This document shows, one piece after another, positions 9,251 through 55,985 of a DNA stretch of 64,000 nt; within the stretch, counting starts at the first letter, position 1, and every line of letters starts with the position of its first letter. The notes under the pieces were generated by a model. It ran no database searches and was not told the DNA's origin. It was given only the letters and a program-made list of their open reading frames with translations. A program made the translations under genes and the position numbers. The DNA is from Sialis fuliginosa (lineage: Eukaryota > Arthropoda > Insecta > Megaloptera > Sialidae): assembly GCA_961205875.1 (NCBI GenBank), contig OY540813.1, positions 12,309,001-12,373,000 of the forward strand. The letters are read 5' to 3'.

Positions 9251-10467
9251 AATAAATTATACAGTTTCAAATCGCAATCATTCACTAATTTAATTAAATC
9301 TTTGATGATACTGTATCTAATTTTCTTTTGATTTTAATAAATTATTATACTATTTTTGTAAAACAGCTAAAGCAAACAAATAAATAATAATTGATGTTGT
9401 TTCTATTTGAATCTGATTTTTTATACTTTTATTAAGTAACAATAATAATTAAAATGTGTATTAGTTGCATATTACTTAATCTTAAAAAGTGTTTGACAAT
9501 TTACAAATAATGAAAGTAATAAGCCAATTGTTCGGTATGCCACGCCCGACGTTTCGTCCAGAGTCTTTGAGTGGAACAAATTACTAGACAGGATACAAAC
9601 ATCGCTGAACATTGTTACAGTATAGTTACAAAATACACACAAAATCTAGAAGGGCCTTTTAGATGATTTCAATCACAATGCAAGGCTACTTCGATGTTAT
9701 TACTTTAATAATACTTTAGCCTCGTTTCCGTCCAAAGACTAACTTTTTACTGCCATGATTACCAATTTTGGATCAAATAATATTAATTATGGACAAACTA
9801 ATTAATTAATTTAAAAAAGAAATATCTGTAAATTATCATTTACTATGTATTAATGCATTTTATTATTATTTTTAAAATAAAATTATGTTTCCATTGAACG
9901 ATTCCACGAGAAATTAAATAATATAATTATTTTACATACACTAATTGAATTGCAGTGAACATTAATAAATGTTATGAAATGTTAATGAAAGTGGAAATTA
10001 AAAAATATTTACCATTCGTTTTTAATGTATACTTTTCATGTTATTCAACGAATAGAATAAATGCACCCGTTAATTTTTTTTTATAAATTATTTTACATAC
10101 TTATCGAATATATAGGTATTAATTAATTTAAAATACCTAACTTACCTACGTTATATGTTTTGTTAATCAGTAAATCAGATCGATAATCATAATAGAATAG
10201 CAGTTATTAGACGTTTTCTTATCTTTTATAGGTATTTATTTTTTAAATTTTTTGTCATAAAATAAAAAAATATTTATAGCTATTTAATTACGCCATATTT
10301 TGATATATGTAGGAGCTTAAATAACATTAAAGGCCAATTTTTATATCTAGTTAAAATTCGTGAAATTTTCCAAATACTAAATCATTATGTACATTAAATA
10401 TAACTGCGTAAATAATATTTATTATTTACTGAGTATATACATATTAATTAATATGTGTAATAAATAC
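9251..10467. other. AT-rich DNA downstream of the large exon (probable intron)
   Basis: On the minus strand this follows the splice donor at 10467-10466, so it is probably the start of an intron of the large-exon gene. No further exon could be recognised in it. Confidence 0.45.
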
Positions 10468-12590
10468 CTTCTTGGAGGTAACGGAGGTACAACATCTGGA
10501 CTTATTCTATTCGGGCTTCCAATTGGTGAACAACTTGGTGTCGAATCAACACTAGATGGCCCCAAACTTGAATCGGTCGACGACAAACTTCTCGGTCTTC
10601 TTGATCGTGATGATTCTGAACTACTCCTAGCTCTCGACCCACTACTACCAAATTGAGCTCTTCTCCGGCTCAAACTTCTAGAACTACGAGACACATTACG
10701 CGCATTAGTCACAATACGGGACCTGGATTCAACAGTCCTATGGTGATGATGTCCAGATCCACCACTACCACCAACACTGTTCACATCACGTGGTGACAAC
10801 ACTCTATTCCTTGTTTCCCTCGATGACAACCTAGTCGGCGCACTTGTTGGTCGCAGTACAATCGAAGACGATCTGTCTGTTGGTCTTGGGGTTAAATTAT
10901 CGATCGCAGCCGCTACGAGAGCTTCGTTGTGCCGTGAATACAAACTAGGCTCTGTTGGTAACCTGAAGTGCCTTATACGGCGCATAGACGATCTCAACCA
11001 CGACGGTGTTACGCTATTGTTTCTACTCTGGTTTAATTCCTCATCGTTGCTTTTCATTTCAATGGTAGTTTGTACCGCGCTGGTTACCGATCTACTACAG
11101 CTAGGCTCTGGCACGACGTCTGCACTACTTGCACCACCGCTCCCCTCCGTTTTATTATAATTATCCGTACTGCACGCTAGTGTAACATCGGAGTTTCCCA
11201 CTTCTTCAGTTTCTGTTTGCTTGTTACCGCTACGATACGCTTCGGCGCATTCCTCTTCATCATCCTCACAATTTGTGAACTCTTCGGCTACTATTTGTTC
11301 AACCCAACTCCAATCTATGTTGTCATCATAATCCTCTTCGTTATCTAATTGTTTATGATCGTTTGAAATGACTCCAATCCTTTGAAGTAAATCTAAACGC
11401 TTTAACCTCTCACCAACTGCTATTGTATTTCGATATGGATCTAATCTTTTAAACGGAATTTTACGCAAAGACCTTGTTTTAAAACTGGAAGTCAATTTAT
11501 CACGATTAAAATAATTCGTATGTTCGATAGGTATTGAAATATGATTAGTGCAATTATTTTTATTAGGTTCTTCACTCGATATATTATCCATATTTTGTAA
11601 ATATGTGTCAAGATCATACAGACATTCTTCCACCGATGGCTGATTTGAGGGATCAGCTATATTATTTTTTATTTCACATTCAATAATATTGTTTTGAATG
11701 AGGATTGTGTTATGAACATTTATTGATGATTTTACTTTATCTAAATCGTTCATGGCACTTGTATTTGGCAGCACGCAATTTAAATTTACATTTGAACAAT
11801 TGTCGTATTCTGTTTTCAAATTTTCTTTAGATATTTGTTCTAATGAGTAGTCGTAATTTGAACAATAGTTTTCATCTAATTCATCATTTTCTAATGATTG
11901 GTTTAAATACTCATCAAGTTGATTTAATACATAATATAATTCCAAACTTTCTAAAGATTTTGATCTTGCTAATTCTTTTTCATTTTGTTCGAACATATTT
12001 AAAAACGTATAACTACTACTTCTCCTTAATTTTCTCGTACTTGGAAATGTCGATGTTGTAGTAAGTTTTTTCATTTTCTCTATAACATCTACTTTTGTAC
12101 TTTTCCCGTCATCCAACTTCGAATTGATAATGGTTTTTGATTCGATGTCAGTGCATGGTAACGCAAAACATTCAGACTTAGTTTTTAATGAGCGAGGAAG
12201 TGTAGATGCTTTTCGATATTTATACAAACTATTTTTCACTTCAGCTTCATCTGGATTCGTATAACAATTATCACTTTCTGAATCATCTTCAAGAGTAATC
12301 AATACATTATCTGATTTTTCATTTATAAAATTCGATTCTTCGGACGTTGTTTCTGAATTCATTTTTGTTTGTAATACTTCTTCTAATTGAAGTACACCAG
12401 AATCGAGTAAATGTTCTTCTGAAGAACTCCCATCATCTTCTTCGATGAGACTGGATAACGAGCAAGCACGGGATACTTCTGGCGAACTAATTTTAAAATC
12501 GATAAGATCATCTCCTTCTTCGGGCTCATGGGGGTCTTCAGAAGATGTTGATGTGTCGTTGTTTTGATCACCTATTGTTTGAGACTCCAT
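10468..12590 (-). CDS. Large serine-rich disordered protein, 5' coding exon (3' end not in this exon)
   Basis: The family is not recognised. The exon encodes 707 residues plus two bases. The start is the ATG at 12590 (CAAAATGG context, A at -3 and G at +4). The acceptor upstream is TTTCCAG (exon from 12616) or GCAG (from 12608). The exon ends AAG|GTATTT at 10468; the open frame beyond reads into intron, so the protein continues elsewhere. Composition suggests mostly disorder: acidic, serine-rich N-terminus (1-110); basic serine patches such as KLRRSSSYTF (188-197) and RSKSLESLELYY (209-220), which resemble phosphorylation sites; an acidic stretch with one WSW (414-450); a histidine run (614-617); an RS-rich region (620-675); and PPLPPR (702-707), an SH3-ligand-like motif. 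There are no membrane segments, signal peptide or enzyme motifs. A scaffold or adaptor role is plausible but is inference. Confidence 0.8.
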
Positions 12591-13428
12591 TTTGAGTGAG
12601 GCCCTTTTCTGCAAACCTGGAAACATAATATAATATATTAAATGAAGCAATAAGTTTCATCGATACGTATTATTACATATGTATGTATAAATTATAAAAA
12701 AGTTTATCTTTCGAAAAAAAAAATAATTTTCTTTATAGTTTCTGTGTATTTTTATTTATTTAAGTATTAAAGCATCAATTACAATTTTATCAAAGGTACT
12801 CATATAGGCATTAAGTTTGTGTTGAAATAAGATAAAATTGCAATTATAAAATTTATTTATGGGTCATTCCATATAAAATCATCAAGGTGCTGAAGTTGCA
12901 CCATTTTTAATTTTGATGAAAGTTTAATCAGTTGTTATTATACTTATTAGATAGCAGAAACTGTACTTAGAAAAATTTTAATGGCCATAGTTCGGGGGTG
13001 GTGACCATTTTACCCTCTTAAGGTATGAAGATTTCGTCGATTTTCAACGTTTTTTCAACTCGCTATAGCACGCGTTCTAATAAAGCAATTACAACGAGCT
13101 TAATGTCATTTGAAAGACTAAAGAATCTAGTTTCAATTGATCTAGCACAATTTAAAGTTTAAATTATTTTTTTTGTAGATAGAGGCTTTTCAAATTTATT
13201 AATAAAATTGTCATTTTTTCTATTTTTCGAAATTTATTGTGGCTCTAAGGTTAAACTGAGAAAGCTATAATTATGTGTAAGTTATGTTCATTTATAGTAC
13301 TCAGTACCCACAAAAAATCAGCTTGATTTATGCACATCTTTTATTAAAAAAATTTATTTAAATATCGCAAAAATCACGAAAACACCAAAATCAGCTGTTT
13401 TCGAAGCAAAAAAAAGTTATGTGGGGGA

Positions 13429-14254
13429 CGAGATAAAATTCTGAATTTTTTTTTACAAATGCTCTAAATAGTTATCTTTGAAGGCCTTGTAGATTCGTTT
13501 TGTTATTTTCATTTTTGTAGCAACCAGAATTATTTTTTTAATTTAAAAAAATACGAAAACTTCAAAAACGGTTATTTTTTAAACAATACAAAAATATGTT
13601 GGGCACGAGATAGAATTCTGAATTTTTTTTTACAAATGCTCTAAATAGTTATCTTTGAAGGCCTTATAGATTCGTTTTGTTATTTTCATTTTTATAGCAA
13701 CCAGAATTTTTTTTTAAATTTAAAAAAATACGAAAACTTCAAAAACGGTTTTTTTAAACATAATACAAAAATACGTTGGGCACGAGATAGAATTCTGAAT
13801 TTTTTTTTACAAATGCTCTAAATAGTTATCTTTGAAGGCTTTATAGATTCGTTTTGTTATTTTCATTTTTATAGCAACCAGAATTTTTTTTTAAATTTAA
13901 AAAAATACGAAAACTTCAAAAACGGTTATTTTTAAACATAATACAAAAATATGTTTGGCACGAGATAGAATTCTGAATTTTTTTTTACAAATGCTCTAAA
14001 TAGTTATCTTTGATGGCCTTATAGATTCGTTTTGTTATTTTCATTTTTATAGCAACCAGAATGTTTTACATATTTAAATTTAAAAAAATACGAAAACTTC
14101 AAAAACAGCTATTTTTTAAACAATACAAAAATATGTTGGGCACGAGATAGAATTCTGAATTTTTTTTTATATTTGCTTTAAGTAATTAACTTTAAAGGCC
14201 AATTGGCTTTTTCTTGTTATTTTCATTTTTCTAGTCACCAGATTTTTTTTAAAT
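13429..14254. repeat. Tandem ~178-bp repeats, left arm
   Basis: The anchor CGAGATA(A/G)AATTCTGAAT occurs at 13429, 13606, 13783, 13961 and 14143, spacings of 177, 177, 178 and 182 bp. Each unit holds a CAAATGCTCTAAATAGTTAT block, a CGTTTTGTTATTTTCATTTT block and a GAAAACTTCAAAAACGG block. The outermost and innermost units are the most diverged. Confidence 0.85.
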
Positions 14255-14730: not shown

Positions 14731-15555
14731 TTAAAAAAAGTCTGGTGACTAGAAAAATGAAAATAACAAGAAAAAGCCAATTGGCCTTTAAAGTTAATTA
14801 CTTAAAGCAGTTATAAAAAAAAATTCAGAATTCTATCTCGTGCCCAACGTATTTTTGTATAATGTTTAAAAAAACCGTTTTTGAAGTTTTCGTATTTTTT
14901 TAAATAAAAAAAAAAATTCTGGTTGCTATAAAAATGAAAATAACAAAACGAATCATTAAGGCCTTCAAAGATAACTATTTAGATCATTTGTAAAAAAAAA
15001 TTCAGAATTCTATCTCGTGCCCAACATATTTTTGTATTATGTTTAAAAATAACCGTTTTTGAAGTTTTCGTATTTTTTTAAATTTAAAAAAAAATTCTGG
15101 TTGCTATAAAAATGAAAATAACAAAACGAATCTATAAGGCCATCAAAGATAACTATTTAGAGCATTTGTAAAAAAAAATTCAGAATTCTATCTCGTGCCC
15201 AACATATTTTTGTATTGTTTAAAAAATAACCGTTTTTGAAGTTTTCGTATTTTTTTAAATTAAAAAAAAAATTCTGGTTACTATAAAAATGAAAATAACA
15301 AAACGAATCATTAAGGCCTTCAAAGATAACTATTTAGAGCATTTGTAAACAAAAATTCAGAATTCTATCTCGTGCCCAACATATTTTTGTATTATGTTTA
15401 AAAATAACCGTTTTTGAAGTTTTCGTATTTTTTTAAATTTAAAAAAAAATTCTGGTTGCTATAAAAATGAAAATAACAAAACGAATCTATAAGGCCTTCA
15501 AAGATAACTATTTAGAGCATTTGTAAAAAAAAATTCAGAATTTTATCTCGTCCCC
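14731..15555. repeat. Tandem ~178-bp repeats, right arm (inverse of left)
   Basis: The inverse anchor ends at about 14840, 15017, 15195, 15372 and 15550, spacings of 177-178 bp: the same copy number and period as the left arm in the opposite direction. Individual units carry private differences, such as ATCATTAAGG versus ATCTATAAGG. Confidence 0.85.
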
Positions 15556-16127
15556 CACATAACTTTTTTTTGCTTCGAAAACAGCTGATTTTGGTGTTTT
15601 CGTGATTTTTGCGATATTTAAATAAATTTTTTTAATAAAAGATGTGCATAAATCAAGCTGATTTTTTGTGGGTACTGAGTACTATAAATGAACATAACTT
15701 ACACATAATTATAGCTTTCTCAGTTTAACCTTAGAGCCACAATAAATTTCGAAAAATAGAAAAAATGACAATTTTATTAATAAATTTGAAAAGCCTCTAT
15801 CTACAAAAAAAATAATTTAAACTTTAAATTGTGCTAGATCAATTGAAACTAGATTCTTTAGTCTTTCAAATGACATTAAGCTCGTTGTAATTGCTTTATT
15901 AGAACGCGTGCTATAGCGAGTTGAAAAAACGTTGAAAATCGACGAAATCTTCATACCTTAAGAGGGTAAAATGGTCACCACCCCCGAATTATGGCCATTA
16001 AAATTTTTCTAAGTACAGTTTCTGCTATCTAATAAGTATAATAACAACTGATTAAACTTTCATCAAAATTAAAAACAGTGCAACTTCTATATTTTAATAA
16101 ATTTGATGATTATACATGGAATGACTC

Positions 16128-20145: not shown

Positions 20146-21093
20146 CTACATGGGCTGAAAAGCCTTTAGCCTAACAATAAAAAAACTCTTTTTTTCTTCG
20201 CCATTTGCGGCCGTTTTGCCTTGACTTCGTCGTCTAATCGATTCAGTAATGCACAGTAATATTCTTTGTTGATTGTTATACCCTGTTGAAGTTAGTCAAT
20301 AAATATTAAACCATGTGCATCCCAAAAAATACTAGCAAGAACTTTACCGGGCGACTGTTTTGTATTTGGGCGTTTCGGACGGCATTTATCAGGCAATAAC
20401 CATTCTGCTGACTGCTGATTGGACTCCAGTGTGTATTAATGGATCCATGTTTCATCCATTGTCACAAATCGCATGAAAAAAAGTGAAACAGTGCCAAATT
20501 TTGCTTTGAAAGTCGAACACGTTCATATTTTTGGTCAATTGTTAAAAAACGCGGTACCCATCGCGCGCAAAGCTTTTTCATATGTAAACATTTATGAAGT
20601 ATATGACCAGCATGTTCCTTTGAGATATCTATGGTGTTAGCTAGCTCACTCACTTTCACTTTGCGGTCATTCAATACAATTTCACGAATTTTTCTAATGT
20701 TTTCTGGAGTAACTGCCTCAGTTAGCCTTCCTGAACGCGGTGCATCATTTGTGCACGTACAATTACGATGAAATTCAGCAAACCAATATTTTACGGTTAA
20801 ATTGTCTGGGACAGATGTGCCGTAACACATATCAAGTCATTCCTTTGTTTGGACGGTATTTTTCCCCATCAAAAAACAATGTTTAATCAAAACACGAAAT
20901 TCACGTTTTTCCATGATTAAAAAAATAACAAAAGTAGCGTCATTTCGAAGGCTGTAACTTGAACAAGAGTACATGAAATGTCATGAAATTTTGACAGTAC
21001 TCTAGTTAAGGTTGGTATTCTATGGGAAGCATAAGGATTTTTTGTTTATGTCGCCATTTGTATGTCAGACCAAAGACTTTTCAGCCCTTGTAG
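20146..21093 (-). mobile_element. Internally deleted mariner-family transposon
   Basis: The ends are inverse copies, CTACATGGGCTGAAAAG and CTTTTCAGCCCTTGTAG, extending imperfectly to about 30 bp, with TA outside each end (20144-20145 and 21094-21095) as expected for Tc1/mariner insertion. The length of 948 bp is below the usual ~1.3 kb of intact mariners. The loss falls in the 3' part of the transposase. Confidence 0.85.
20190..20914 (-). pseudogene. Mariner transposase remnant
   Basis: It reads from the ATG at 20914. Codon 26 is a TGA where the family usually has tryptophan. The frame then continues through the N-terminal helix-turn-helix region with the familiar blocks CYGTSVPDNLTVKYWFAEF, APRSGR, TPENI and LCARWVPR. 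A frameshift near 20475 precedes a second segment holding the DETW first catalytic aspartate block and the WDAHG second one, broken by two more stops. The segment carrying the third catalytic aspartate is missing and the frame runs into the terminal repeat. In life the protein cuts and inserts the element at TA; this copy cannot encode it. Confidence 0.85.
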
Positions 21094-26936: not shown

Positions 26937-29735
26937 TATATTTTTTTAATTTTAGCATACAATTTTTCCAAACAATACGCATTCATATTTTTATTTAAAT
27001 ATCAACCCACAAGAACTGTATAACTTCATATTGTTTAAAATGGGTTTTTTGTATACCCACGTTTTCCTGCTACAAAAATCAATATACCTATTAGTGTTTC
27101 CAAATAATTCGTACTGATTGTATCTCAAACATGATTTATACATATGATATGTAAATATTATAAAATATACGCATTTTCTTAAATATTCTTTTAAATGTAC
27201 GCTATTTGACAAAATTCAGCTGTAGTAGCTAACTTTTCGGGCTGTTGTCCACGTTGTCGTATTTTTACACTTAGCTACTATGGACAACGGCCACGAAAGC
27301 CTACAGAAGAAAATTCAGCTGCGTCATTTTTATCTAACTGTTAATTCTGGCTTCAGACGATCTGTTAGAAACAATACAAAAAGTGATTATTGTACACACG
27401 TCATTGTCTTACGCAATACAGGTGAAACTCACGCACGCACACACACACATATGTACATAGCGATATTATTACTATTATTTAATATTATAGTATAGTATGT
27501 CGAGCTATAATCGTTGGCAATGTTAAACAAGAGTTCAGCTTGGATCCTATAATTATAAATGACAGATGTATGGCGTACATGAAAATTTGTGAACATTAAT
27601 TTACTTTTTAAGTACGTGTGTCTGCTGTAGCCTCATCTAATTTAGAGAGTTTCTAAAAAACGTGATTAGATTGATTCGTTTCTGAGAAATTGTATCTATT
27701 CTGTTAGTTATATTTTTTACAATTAGTTTAAATTATATGGCAATTTTTCGAAGATTATGTGGTTACTGTTAATGTCTGTTTTTGAAATAAAAAATTTTCC
27801 ATTTTCAGAAATAATATGTTATATGAATTCATCACAGAACATTGTAGATTTCTATTTACTAATGGTTATGATTTAAACGGGCGGTAATAATTATATTACA
27901 GTTTCGGTCAGTATTAAAATAAAAAATAGTAAGTTCAATAACATATTGAGTGATAAAATATGACCAGTAAAAAATGGAAACCAGTGGTAATATATTATGA
28001 AATGGTTGGTTGAATAAATATGTACTTTGGGAAGTAAAATAAATGATTGGGCAGTAACACGTGAGCAGTAACTAAATGGGAATGGGGAACCTGCGATGTG
28101 GGTTGATTGAATATTTATTTTGTAAGCAGTTTTATATTCTGGAAAGGTTTCCCATGCTTGAATTAAAGGTTCAGTATTATGAAATTTAATTAATTTTTGC
28201 TACAGAAACAAAATAAAATAATTTTAAAATTAAATCATTTTCATTTTACACTTAATTTGAAACAATCAAAACAATAAAAAAAATTTGTAATATAAAATAT
28301 TTAATTACGGAAACGTTTGAAAAATAAAATAATTTAATTTTATCTTAAGTTCATTGACACATTACAAACAAGGACAAAATGATACGATATTGGATATTTT
28401 AACATAAGCTTGTTGAAGAATACCTTGTAATAAACACAATACTTTACACCAGAGTATCTATAACTGTACAGTACTTATAAAAAACAAATTACTCAAAATA
28501 ATTACTTTGCAAAAATGAGTCAGTCATTTGCCAATAAGACTTATAATTAACCAACTTGCTAATTCTGATACTAGAGTAATTGATTGATGAAATGTTTTTA
28601 AGAAAATCAAAGAATATAGTTCAATATTTACCCTTGCCAATAAATAAAGCTATAGAACATTTTTGTTAAAAAAATGTAAAAAATCCATCCACCTAATAGT
28701 AGATAGAATAAATATTTTAAAACTATTTTTTTCTTTCATGTTCCGAAAAAATATAAGGTACTGGTACCAGTCTTGGATATGACCCCATATATAACTTCTG
28801 TGAAAATGCATTGATTTGAATTTTTTAAATGTTCGACTCGGCGAGTATTACAGACCTATTGATATACTTTGGCATTGAAAATATGCTATATTTTGTATCT
28901 ATAACAATATAATATCATCTAATTATCGTATAAGAGTTCTCTAGTATTCTCTACTGAATTTTTTATAATAAAAATGTTTCTAAATAAAAAACAATTATGG
29001 AACATTTTTATATTCACTGGTTGCCAAATTAATTACTTTAAAAAATATCTAATTGTTTTATAGTTTTTATATTTATTATTATATAAATATAAATGATGAC
29101 CTTTTAATTAATACCTGTATTTAGATACAATAATTTATATTAATTATGTTGAAAATATTTCAGGCAAATGTATTTTATAATAATCAATACCAGCACTTTT
29201 TTAATAATTCAATTAAATCATAATTGTATATTTAGTACACTTTATAATGTATACAGTACCTAAATTTTATTATAATTATACTTTTTCTTTTGTTCATCAG
29301 TAATATTATAAAGATTATTTAGACTAATTCGTATATAGTTTTTACCAGGCCCCAAACTTGGTATTTTCTAAACTGTAATAAGATATTCTTAAGGATTTTG
29401 TTAAGCAAGTTAGTTCAATGTTATATGTATTAATTTTATAAAATTACATTCGGCAGTTGCCGAACTTACCAGCCTGCTCTTATAATGTAAAAATAAAATA
29501 TATAATGAAAAATGATTCCATGCTGATAATCTTGAATGGTTTGAACATTTGTATATAAAAAATTAATTAAAATATTCAAAAGTCATGTCCAATTCCGTAA
29601 CTTGCAATTGTCTGGATATAAAATGTATCGAACTAAATTGGTTTTATTATAAAAATAGTGTAACTTTAGATCATACATACAAAGACAGTCATTACTGGAA
29701 AAACGGAGAAGCTGTGGTTTCTTAGTCACTAAACT
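26937..29735. other. AT-rich stretch, microsatellite only
   Basis: A short (CA)n tract lies at 27431-27450. At 27231-27303 TTTTCGGG.CTGTTGTCCA and its imperfect inverse form a small inverted repeat. There is no supported exon on either strand. Confidence 0.4.
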
Positions 29736-29764
29736 AAAAATATACACCTTAACCACAACAAAAC

Positions 29765-29817
29765 AATGTCACTCGACACGTGTTTCGACTTCACAAGAGG
29801 TCCTCATCAGAATCCTA
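29765..29817 (-). ncRNA. Hammerhead-ribozyme-like motif, copy A
   Basis: On the minus strand CUGAUGA (29810-29804) is followed by one G and then the hairpin GACCUC-UUGU-GAAGUC (stem II, one C/A mismatch). GAAA (29786-29783), a self-complementary ACACGUGU (stem III) and the GUC cleavage triplet ending at 29775 follow. Stem I is weak here. A palindromic short stem III is typical of hammerheads in Penelope-like retroelements, which act as dimers. The extra G between CUGAUGA and stem II is atypical, so activity is uncertain. AAAATATAC-type inverted repeats flank it (29736-29750 and 29850-29868). No reverse transcriptase is nearby. Confidence 0.5.
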
Positions 29818-29925
29818 ACAGTTCCAGACTGTTAGGCAGACTTAGGTTTAGGTATATTTTTAGTTTAAAGACAGTCATAATTGTCAATTTTATTGAATGG
29901 TTAAAAACACTTTAAACGTCTAGAT

Positions 29926-30396
29926 CAGCGGTTCTTAAAGTAGGGTCCGCGGACCCCTGGATGTCCGCGGAATTATTGCCGGGGTTCCGTGAAACATGTT
30001 TGGCATAAATTAAAGTACTTTTTAATTTCTATTTACCAATGATTAATTACTATCTAACGACCTTCTTTGTTTTTCTGTCAGGGAGGCTGGGGTTATTTTA
30101 GTGTGTAGTTGTAGCTTATTTCTGCAGTTGTAAAAGATAATTTGTGTAGTGCAAAAAATTGAAAAAATGTATAATAAATAAATAAAATAATAAAATGTGT
30201 GGAAAAAAGGTCATTGCAGTAATAATGCAAAAAATGTAAGATATAGAACAAAAAAATAGGTCATTGCAGTTGAAAAGCAAAAATTGTAAGTATGGAGCAA
30301 AAAGTAAGGTTGTAAAATTTTCTTAAAGGAAGAGGTCACTGAAAAATAATTGTTAAAAAAGGGGGTCCCTAGACTACATACGTTTAAGAACCGCTG
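29926..30396. mobile_element. 471-bp non-autonomous hAT element
   Basis: The ends are CAGCGGTTCTTAAA and TTTAAGAACCGCTG, the classic CAG.GGTTCT type of hAT termini. The flanks GTCTAGAT and ATCTAGAT are an 8-bp target duplication with one mismatch. A GGGTCCGCGGACCCC hairpin lies just inside the left end and GGGGTCCCTAGACT inside the right. No transposase frame. Confidence 0.85.
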
Positions 30397-32025: not shown

Positions 32026-33254
32026 ATAACCCACCACTATATTATTATTGATATTTATAACGACCTGATTCATTTTGATTTAAATAATTTGTTTAAATAC
32101 CAACCAAAAGGATGACAAAACAAATTAAAACAGTTGATCATTTACCTTAACTTAATCAACTAACAATAAATTACATTTTATAATAAACTCAAGATTTTCT
32201 ATCAAAGAAGCACCACATTACATAATTTCGCCATCAGGAGTGAGGGGCGGAGTAAAATAACCATCCTGACCCCATTTTAAGTCTGCCACTGGTTATATTT
32301 ATTACACATATCAAGTGATCATTTTATCTGTAAGATAAAATAATTATAACAATAAAAAATATATTAACTAATAGAAGTACCATCTCTCTTTTTCCACTTA
32401 CATCTGATTTTCTCTCTGTCTAATAAATTAATGTAATTATATATTTATGTAAGGCAATTTATGTACATATTAGTTTGAGACCAGTTGCAATAAAATTTGC
32501 CAAGAGTTATGTAAAAATTGACCGGTCTTTAAAACGGTTTTTCTAATTAGGTAACCTTGCTGCTGAGAATATGCAAATAAACACAAATGCAGGCAAGTTG
32601 TTTGTTAATTAAGTTTAGAAGAAGACAAGCGTCAAAGTGGTGTTTGTTTAAAACACCATTCATTAACCCTTAATTTAATTGAACAAAGTTTATTTGGCTT
32701 GGGAATTGGATTTTAATAGTAGTAAAGTTTAGTTTTATAACTTATTGTTAGATTTATGATATAAGGTAGTGGCACCAGTCTTGGTCGCTTTAAGAGCAAA
32801 GTATACTGTTTTTTTAGGATTGATGGGATTATTTTTTGTAATTCTCATGAACTCATGTTACTAATTAAATAAGTACCTCTTTATTAAGTCAATTTAATTA
32901 CCAAAGTCTGTATAATAATATATAGTTTATTTTTACTTAAGTAAAGCCAGTAATGGGCATCCTGTAAAATTGTAAATAATGTAAAGCAGATTATAATATA
33001 ATAATAATTAATAAATAGATTACACTAATAATTTGTTTAAATGTCTACCATTTTGACACCCATTGGCCGATTGTCATCAAATTTAGCTGTTTTAAAGTTA
33101 AGTGTATATAGATTATGATTAAGTTATGGCAGTAATCAAATATGAACAACTATTTCTAATTTTTCTATTTGTTGTTAATACATATAACACTTAATTCTTT
33201 TTTGTCCGGTATAATTATAAAGAATTTTCTTGAGTGCAAATGCAAATTAGCTTC
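32026..33254. other. AT-rich, no gene seen
   Basis: No supported exon. A CCACTGG word preceded by GTCTGC near 32283 resembles a hAT-type end, but its partner is not visible. Confidence 0.4.
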
Positions 33255-43830: not shown

Positions 43831-44210
43831 CCAAAAAAGCGACCTACATATGTATATAGCATTGTAGTATTGGTCGAGCATAGTCGAAATCCAAATATTT
43901 GTAATTTTCTTCTTACCAGTTTTTTTTTATTTGAGCTTGAATTTTTCAAAAAAGGGGGGATACCAAAAAAGCGACTTGTATAGAATTGTAATATTGGTCG
44001 AGCATAGTTGAAATCCAAATTTTAGAAATTTTTTGCTTACCAGTTTTTTTTATTTGAGCTTGAATTTTTCAAAAAAGGAGGGATACCAAAAAAGCGACTT
44101 GTATAGAATTGTAATATTGGTCGAGCATAGTTGAAATCCAAATTTTAGGAATTTTTTGCTTACCAGTTTTTTTTATTTGAGCTTGAATTTTGGCTATAAG
44201 TTGAATTTTT
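43831..44210 (+). repeat. Three tandem units of about 123-132 bp
   Basis: CCAAAAAAGCGAC occurs at 43831, 43963 and 44086. Each unit continues with ATTGGTCGAGCATAGT.GAAA, CTTACCAGTTTTTTTTATTT and GAGCTTGAATTTTTC. Units 2 and 3 are nearly identical, so that duplication is the more recent one. The short minus-strand open frames here simply follow the repeat. Confidence 0.8.
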
Positions 44211-52720: not shown

Positions 52721-53069
52721 TATATTAATAATAATGTTTATTATGTTTCATGTAATTTTTCATTTAAACAGAGCTTTTTAATAGTAATAGATACATTCAA
52801 ATGCGCGAATATCCAATCACACATTCACGATCCAAAAAAAATCGTCTACGCTCACGTCGGATTACAGCTATGAGCCGAAAAATTCATGGCTCACACCCAG
52901 ATCTACCCTGGATTCAACTAAAACTGGTTATGAAAATCTCACCCCCATGGTTGTAATTAAAAGTCTTAACAAAACATAATTACAACGAAAATTTAACGAC
53001 AGGTTATAGGGCTGAATAAACAAAATGTATTATTTAAAATAAAAATATACACCTTAATCACAATAAAAC

Positions 53070-53125
53070 AATATCACTCGACACGTGTTTCGACTTCACA
53101 AGACGTCCTCATCAGGAACCTAACA
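53070..53125 (-). ncRNA. Hammerhead-ribozyme-like motif, copy B
   Basis: On the minus strand CUGAUGA (53115-53109) is followed by G, then GACGUC-UUGU-GAAGUC (stem II, one mismatch). GAAA (53091-53088), palindromic ACACGUGU and GUC ending at 53080 follow. The base before CUGAUGA and the GAGUG after the cut can form four pairs of stem I (two wobble), better than copy A. Homology to copy A covers about 85 bp and includes the AAAATATACACCTTAA block. The extra base before stem II is shared, so it is a family feature and not a chance error. Confidence 0.5.
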
Positions 53126-55985
53126 GTACCACACTGTGACTAAGTTTTGTTTTTTCAGTATTACAGTAAAATTTATTATAGCATCAAACCGGTAATCTGG
53201 GGTCCCCAATAATGTCATCAAATTTAAATTTTGATAATCTTACTACAGTGATTAGTTCATAAAAGAAGTCCTTTTTGTCCATAGGATAATGCGTCACCGC
53301 TAAGCACTGATCTAATTTATGAAAAATAATTATTAATTCATGTTTAAAATTGTTGTTAAATTATTTATAAATTATATAAATTTTTTTATTAACGAATTGT
53401 GATATTTATATAGATACATTATATTATAATTATACTCAAACACCTACAGAAGGTATTTTATTTTCTTTAATGGCAGTGGGAAGGGGGCATATATGCATAA
53501 TCCAAATTTAATTAATTATATATAATTTTTTAATATCAATATTTTTTAAAGTTTTTAACAAAGTCAATTTGTTTTTAATTATCTACCCGTGTACTAATAA
53601 TAAAACAATAGATATTTTCAACAACCTTGGCAGATGTGGTATATATACGTACATAGGTACATACTTGTATAGTTCGTAGGTAAGTACATTAGAAAGTACC
53701 TAGAGTTTAAATAACCAAGTGACGTTATGTTGATTTGAGATGCAGAATTATTTTCAATAAATGTAATATAATTTAAATAAATTTGCTGGCTGACAAACAC
53801 TTTAAACGGGGTATTAATTCATAGTTGTTGATTAGGATACAGTTTTTCTACTGCCAAAGGTACTTGGTCAGGAAGAACTTATATTATCCAATATTATAAA
53901 TAAACTAAAAAATCTGTAAGCACTTTCAAAAGGGGTATTAATTCTGTGATAGCATCTATGGATTAGCTATAGAATTTAGAGCAGTGATACTTCAACTTAT
54001 TATAATATAACACAGTTGGCGGCTCTGGCCATACAAAATAATTTACATAATATTACCACTGTTTTAATACCGTTGGTGTTTATTTACTACGCGTGCGCGA
54101 AACTTGTCAAACACTTCATGAAACTTCAAGGGATTTTTTTTGTGTGTGGAGGGAGAAGATATTAGAAATATTAGAATCATATACTTACATGTATTTTTAT
54201 GCAAAACTAATGTACTTACCTACGTAGGTTTTTTAGCTGCATTTTTGTAGATTATAGAGCACTTTAGAGCAAGCTTTCCTATTTTTTTTTAATAATGAAA
54301 CATTGTATTTTTCTTAAGATTTATCTTTTAATTCTCTATACCTTAATAAAATGTTACTGTAACAATAAAAATCAACCAAATTTTAAAATGTCATTTATTT
54401 AAAAAATAACTAAAATTTAAAAAGAAATTAAAAGCACTAACATGTAGATTACAACATAATTATTAATATTAAAATATTTTATAAAAAAAATAAAAGAAGT
54501 ATAAGGCAAAGTGCAACATTTTGAAAAAAAAAGACTAGATAGTACATACAAAGTTATTCAGTAGAAATATCTTCATGGTTTCATATTGACAATAAACTTA
54601 AATTATAGTAAAATAAAAAAATATGAGTATGCAGTACCTTATACGTAGCCACAAAAAGAATTATATATATTTATCAATTTATAATGTTAAAATATAAAAC
54701 AAAAAATAAAAATAGCAATAACTATATACTAAAACAAGCATTGGAAATCTTTAATAATAACAATGGCACATCATTTTTTTTATTAGATATAATTAAGGGC
54801 ATAGCTACAGGAGCTTTGGCACAGGGAAGAAGTGAAATGATGGGGACTACATGTAGCTTGTTCTAAAAATGAAATCTGCAGTTGTAAAAGCTAATTTGTG
54901 TAGTTTAAAAATTACAAGTAGAAATAAAAATATAAAAAAATATAAGTGTAAAGCAAAACAAAAAATTTGTAAGAGAGAAATATACAAAATCTATAGAGCA
55001 AAAAAAAGAAGATATTTGCAGTTGAAAATTTTTCTTAAAATGGACTAAATTATAAATATGTAGATGTCTCATTTGTCTACAATTTAAAAAGTCCAACTGC
55101 CAATTATTTGCACAACAAAGTAAACTATACAAATATTATATACCTATCAAGAATGGCCAGTGTGATTCCTAATTTCCTAAAAGCCTATAAATAATAATTT
55201 TAATCTATAATTAATATTTTACTTTCAAATTTTATACTTAACTAAAAAAAAATTATTGGCTGCAAAGAGTATTATTTTTATTTTTATTTATAGTAATAAA
55301 AAAAACATTGTTTTTGGTTTCCGAAAGCACTTAGGCCATAGACCCAATGTACTAACTCCGATGTTTTCCCTTACCCCCTTGACAACAACTATCCCCTTAA
55401 TGAAGTTTATAATGTTTGTTATTGGGAATTTAGTAAATTATCCTGGTTCAACAAAGTATAAGTTTCCCAGGTACCTCAGTTTCCTGTTCATCAAAGCAAT
55501 GTAATATAAATGAAATCAACTATTTTACAATAAGACAACCTTTATATCTCAAAAACAATAAAAAAATATTGCACTTTTTAATACACTACATATTTTTATC
55601 GTAAAAAGAAAGTTGACAACCAAATAAATGTTTTTTAAACAAAAAAAAAACTAAAAAATATTGTTATAAATGCTTTTATCAGTTTTTTATATTGATTATG
55701 ATCGTAAGTGCCGACTTGACATTGGCAGGAAAGGAAAATTATCCCCGTTACCGATATAAATGGGTAAAATGGTAAAAATAATTGTTGGCACTTGTATATA
55801 ATAATATGTACACTTTCCAACGACGATATATATAATATAATAGTAGTAATGTTAAAATATTAATAATAACAGCTTAATTGCATAAACATCAGAATTTATT
55901 TATTCCATCTAAAAGGTATAATTTTTATTTTAAAATATCAATTACATGTATGATTGTATTTAATTGTTATTTATTATATTTTTAG
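53126..55985. other. AT-rich stretch without a firm gene
   Basis: Short open frames at 54684-54866 and 55256-55504 lack splice context or domains. CAGTGATACTTCAAC near 53984 resembles a hAT-type end without a partner. Confidence 0.4.

Follow-up and report, generated by a model that had tools for sequence, protein, structure and literature searches.

The window, that is the whole 64-kb stretch of DNA analysed here, is AT-rich (28% GC) and resembles animal, probably insect, DNA; its gene content includes a thiolase gene and a glutaredoxin-like gene. It also contains an open frame of 744 amino acids rich in S, E and D (10422-12656, minus strand), for which no Pfam family was found at E 0.01, and a frame at 20462-20836 (minus strand) presumably resembling a fragment of mariner-type transposase, without Pfam match at E 0.01. 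Direct reading of the minus strand showed, at two places, CUGAUGA followed by a short hairpin and GAAA, then the palindrome ACACGUGU and finally a GUC triplet. A sequence-only reading had described these parts, with their order and spacing, as a hammerhead-like ribozyme motif, and the description was confirmed in both places, which we call copy A and copy B. Their anatomy is as follows.

29775..29810, minus strand: copy A hammerhead-like core including the extra G and C17 (direct reading, simulations)
29804-29810, minus strand: copy A CTGATGA (direct reading)
29803, minus strand: copy A extra G (direct reading)
29787..29802, minus strand: copy A stem II hairpin, GAC-C-UC / UUGU / GA-A-GUC, with one C.A mismatch
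29783-29786, minus strand: copy A GAAA (direct reading)
29776..29783, minus strand: copy A palindromic stem III half ACACGTGT (reading and folding)
29775, minus strand: copy A C17 (direct reading)
between 29775 and 29774, minus strand: copy A predicted cleavage site
53080..53115, minus strand: copy B hammerhead-like core, anatomy as in copy A (reading and a weak Hammerhead_1 match)
53109-53115, minus strand: copy B CTGATGA (direct reading)
53108, minus strand: copy B extra G (direct reading)
53092-53107, minus strand: copy B stem II, with a G.A mismatch (direct reading)
53088-53091, minus strand: copy B GAAA (direct reading)
53081-53088, minus strand: copy B palindrome (direct reading)
53080, minus strand: copy B C17 (direct reading)

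Both copies present, in order, the type I core CUGANGA ... GAAA ... UH with the cleavage triplet, and the order and spacing of the elements are identical between them. Copy A reads out as CUGAUGA, G, GACCUCUUGUGAAGUC, GAAA (whose last A opens the palindrome ACACGUGU) and C. Stem II is made of GAC/GUC and, beyond a mismatch that is C.A in copy A and G.A in copy B, of UC/GA and a UUGU loop. One extra base after CUGAUGA had been pointed out as unusual: the observation was correct, and a viroid hammerhead is reported with such a base at the same position (PMC3705267). Because two G's are adjacent, its placement is ambiguous: either the extra G follows A9, or G10.1 and C11.1 pair normally and the extra G bulges out of stem II behind them. 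Both copies have it, which makes a private mutation of either one improbable. The sequence also bore out the claim of a palindromic 8-base stem III of the dimer type: the palindrome has no loop, so stem III is closable only between two RNAs or two tandem units, giving 8 pairs in the dimer, and a single RNA cannot close it. The ATG within CTGATGA is followed by 12 codons and a stop in copies A and B alike, two cases being too few to interpret.

The two copies share the same orientation, lie 23 kb apart and align without gaps over the following segments.

29730..29832, minus strand: copy A segment aligned to copy B (94/103 identical)
53035..53137, minus strand: copy B segment aligned to copy A (94/103 identical)

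Differences between them fall at 1 of 36 motif positions and at 8 of the 67 others (one-sided Fisher p 0.11), so that a better conservation of the motif than of the other positions is suggested by this alignment without being significant. A profile built from A and B found no third copy above the inclusion threshold in the window (next best E 0.62), and Tandem Repeats Finder reported no tandem array at either copy (29.7 or 53.1 kb).

Copy A is bracketed by an exact direct repeat and carries a pair of inverted arms.

29693..29866, minus strand: putative full extent of the copy A insertion (174 bp), flanked by the 12-bp direct repeats
29681..29692, unstranded: proposed left target-site duplication AAAGACAGTCAT, exact 12-bp direct repeat
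29867..29878, unstranded: proposed right target-site duplication AAAGACAGTCAT, exact 12-bp direct repeat
29725..29745, unstranded: left inverted arm; over its 21 nt it is 90% complementary to 29852-29872
29852..29872, unstranded: right inverted arm

The arms enclose an exact inverted match of 16 nt (29730-29745 versus 29852-29867), the end of which has its base 29867 in common with the start of the right direct repeat; on the left, 37 bp separate the direct repeat from the matching arm. Exact 12-mers with at least 4 G/C repeated at 100-250 bp, counted over the whole window with specified tandem arrays excluded, gave 16 overlapping rows at five places, one of them that of copy A. With only five such places in the window, it is improbable that one of them met the end of a repeat copy by chance, and the direct repeats are most readily taken for a target duplication flanking a 174-bp insert. 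The flanks of copy B show no clear target duplication, and no inverted-arm pair like that of copy A is reported there, just a stem of 12 pairs including G.U. In copy A, the segment 29693-29729, which separates the left direct repeat from the inverted arm, is 37 bp long, near the length of the optional Penelope tail. A homology of this segment (plus strand) to the 5' side of copy B (minus strand) was considered, with an alignment score of 29, and dropped as evidence because an unrelated place (32336-32420, minus strand) scores the same. Close to copy A lies a non-autonomous element (29926-30396), which we take to be hAT-like, with inverted ends CAGCGGTTCTTAAA and flanking bases matching at 7 of 8 positions (GTCTAGAT / ATCTAGAT); it encloses a 50-bp tandem repeat at 30203-30303.

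How often such a motif would arise by chance was estimated by simulation. In 60 Markov simulations, a loose expression had an expected 0.033 matches per 64 kb. For the full descriptor, which accepts any CUGANGA, a stem II of 3 bp (offset 0 or 1), GAAA and a palindromic stem III that is 6, 8 or 10 bases long, the expectation was 0.0037 per 64 kb (82 matches in 1.418 Gb simulated, both strands). This descriptor is generous and was composed once the motif was already known, so that, given the many windows read, it provides good but not overwhelming evidence for a hammerhead origin; copies A and B belong to one family and therefore count as one event. Plain pairs of CTGATGA and GAAA are not rare, the window having three against 0.82 expected, and 6 of 100 shuffles reaching at least three. 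Covariance models, which had been proposed as a check, bore out half of what was to refute the motif: across the whole 64-kb window no Rfam family was found at the gathering cut-off, a score which is a test of detection and not a definition of the hammerhead. In a permissive search of 401-bp stretches, copy A had no Rfam match up to E 10, and copy B gave a weak match to Hammerhead_1 (53074-53121, 17.3 bits, E 0.23, for a cut-off of 34). The earlier interpretation is partly supported: its repeat, dispersed in two copies, and its dimer-type pattern are upheld, and self-cleavage and an orphan family bringing its own ribozyme stand as proposals.

Differences in stem I may explain the better score of copy B. 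Beside the core, copy A forms U.G and U-A and then meets a mismatch (2 pairs), and copy B forms C-G, U-A, U.G and G.U (4 pairs, 2 of them wobble). Further stems are formed by sequence outside the cores.

53133..53144, minus strand: copy B distal stem I, 5' arm CUUAGUCACAGU, 12 pairs including G.U
53053..53064, minus strand: copy B distal stem I, 3' arm AUUGUGAUUAAG
29814..29836, minus strand: copy A 9-pair hairpin directly 5' of CTGATGA, CCUAACAGU-CUGGA-ACUGUUAGG

In free folding, both copies favour structures other than the hammerhead. The competing hairpin has 12 pairs in copy A (CGAAACA-c-GUGUC / GAGU / GACAUUGUUUUG) and 11 in copy B (GAAACA-c-GUGUC / GAGU / GAUAUUGUUUU); it absorbs the palindrome and the cleavage site, leaving ACACGUGU nearly fully paired except for its fourth base. 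Stem II forms in these folds with a probability of about 0.1 for copy A and 0.77 for copy B. The energy needed to keep core and palindrome open comes to about 9 kcal/mol in copy A (-20.6 versus -29.9) and about 7 kcal/mol in copy B (-19.9 versus -26.7), and forced hammerhead dimers are weaker than free dimers (-54.7 versus -67.8 for A, -49.1 versus -64.0 for B); the trend is the same for 64-nt pieces. Isolated 43-nt cores are equalled or surpassed in folding by 194 of 200 shuffles for A and 174 of 200 for B. The copies themselves fold somewhat better than shuffles (z of -2.00 for A and -1.85 for B, matched by 4 and 7 of 200 shuffles, respectively).

Because the extra G beside A9, the incomplete stem I and the competing hairpin all oppose the active fold, we infer a low activity, and copies A and B are probably slow or dead as ribozymes. 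The extra residue can be compared with that of the plus-strand hammerhead of Chrysanthemum chlorotic mottle viroid, which likewise has one residue between A9 and G10.1, an A instead of the G found here; according to the cited section on this viroid, the natural extra A moderately lowers the trans-cleaving rate, its change to G or C is strongly detrimental and its change to U makes cleavage 3-4 times faster (PMC3705267). By analogy, the G here would predict weak cutting, provided that its position is the equivalent one. Insertions of one or two bases that separate CUGANGA from a stem lie within the known range (PMC10085705). In an Anolis Penelope-like element, the hammerhead is described as cutting only with the element protein added (PMC11167929), so that a ribozyme that is weak by itself could still have a function in its parent element. 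If active, the copies would provide another natural case for asking to what extent an additional residue is tolerated in the hammerhead core, and whether weak ribozymes are rescued by proteins of the element as in the Anolis case (PMC11167929).

The sequence-only reading had seen no reverse transcriptase within reach, and this held: neither a reverse transcriptase nor a GIY-YIG domain was found in 60 frames of the window by Pfam at E 0.01, 0.1 or 1. These frames comprised 23 of the 35 in one list (at least 40 amino acids), 24 of the 49 in another and 13 elsewhere, and such a scan would miss shorter, decayed pieces. Both domains would be missing from a truncated terminal repeat, so that a Penelope ancestry is compatible with their absence; truncated and solo Penelope terminal repeats are reported to be ordinary (PMC3846280), and a missing reverse transcriptase alone is therefore no sign of an orphan family. 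The copies are not classed as Penelope-like elements, an ancestry that we treat as inferred. Five motif patterns were also searched outside the window, four of them in viral contigs, where three had no match and one had two, and one in genome contigs, where it had seven. These nine matches are taken as chance matches in coding sequence: none of the nine has a stem II of 3 bp at either offset (0 or 1), all nine lie inside an open frame of at least 124 amino acids (within the 600 nt inspected), and five are one match or another recurring among related species of two genera. Exact ACACGTGT occurs in seven of the nine because the pattern demanded it. Rfam gave no match at the three of these nine loci that were searched, and distant blastn against plasmids and phages gave none.

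Minimal type I hammerheads of Penelope-like elements, reportedly described by Cervera and de la Pena in 2014 and by Lunse, Weinberg and Breaker in 2017, are among the closest comparisons. Compared by description, they resemble our copies in their type I layout, full core and reduced palindromic stem III needing a dimer, and differ from them in that here an extra G stands between A9 and stem II, stem II has a mismatch and no attached reverse transcriptase was found in the frames scanned. Such hammerheads are reported in tandem in Penelope-like elements, where they may cleave as dimers (PMC7761336), and the cited passage of PMC6155905 describes them as lacking helix III. A putative hammerhead of Aedes aegypti, modelled as a hypothetical dimer, shares with ours, also by description, an insect source, a palindromic stem III and loop III (PMC3088659). 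Regarding the insertion, the Penelope of Adineta vaga, as described in PMC3846280, may resemble our copies in its inverted terminal repeats, short target duplications, palindromes at inverted junctions and solo terminal repeats; its pLTRs, some of them partial and inverted, measure about 181-218 bp, it has an optional 31-bp tail and coding copies of it exist. Its target duplications are of 8-10 bp in several copies and absent from some, versus 12 bp at copy A (PMC3846280). The Penelope-type combination of a short duplication and an inverted partial terminal repeat, frequent but not general among these elements, fits copy A; copy B shows neither clearly.

Because of this likeness of the insertion to Penelope and of the minimal dimer-type hammerhead, we favour, with moderate confidence, a truncated piece of retroelement carrying a hammerhead of the published minimal dimer type, most likely a Penelope-like pLTR or a dependent small relative. 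The full core in both copies, the rarity of the descriptor and, in copy B, the distal stem I and the weak Hammerhead_1 match also speak for this reading; the free folds, the lack of an Rfam match at cut-off and of the two protein domains in the 60 frames, the non-significant conservation of the motif and the flanks of copy B speak against it. A functional parent element would have the motif twice, in tandem or on two RNAs; pairing of the two palindromes would give the 8 bp of stem III, and cleavage of the RNA would follow behind GUC, which may serve to trim the parent transcript. The copies found here would be worn remnants, and are probably ordinary, decayed representatives of an already known class. 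A different proposal keeps the retroelement but makes it a small orphan family of about 110-175 bp, moved by Penelope protein in trans, whose sole functional part would be a dimer-acting hammerhead kept weak or protein-dependent by a family-wide extra G after A9; we regard it as quite improbable.

The same repeats could also be a MITE or another fold-back repeat moved by a transposase, its RNA functionless and its likeness to a hammerhead due to chance, a reading that we hold to be rather unlikely. It would account for the arms of copy A, 21 nt long and 90% complementary, for the somewhat better folding of both copies than shuffles into structures other than the hammerhead, and for a window free of Rfam matches at cut-off; however, it has to produce by chance a complete descriptor expected just 0.0037 times per 64 kb, and no such arm pair is reported in copy B, which has just the 12-pair stem with G.U. 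Cut-and-paste families usually make target duplications of 2-11 bp. The 12 bp at copy A exceed this range, and the left direct repeat stands 37 bp beyond the exact inverted arm instead of adjoining it. Another proposal, which we judge unlikely, is a non-autonomous retrozyme-like RNA element bearing its own ribozyme and spreading through cut, circularised RNA with Penelope protein in trans. The unit is indeed short and without recognised coding frame, both copies have the hammerhead-like core, and metazoan retrozymes are reported to carry type I hammerheads, with Penelope-like elements named as their likely helpers (PMC7229834, PMC7761336). Yet these retrozymes are tandem repeats of 150-450 bp according to the cited part of PMC7229834, whereas neither copy has an array, and stem III is here functional only as a dimer.

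Finally, tandem arrays do exist elsewhere in the window. Two of them, at 13418-14254 and 14733-15561, have a unit of 177-178 bp and lie about 480 bp apart; their consensus units are inverted to each other, forming a large inverted structure. A third array, at 43855-44191, has a 123-bp unit present in 2.7 copies with 94% matches.
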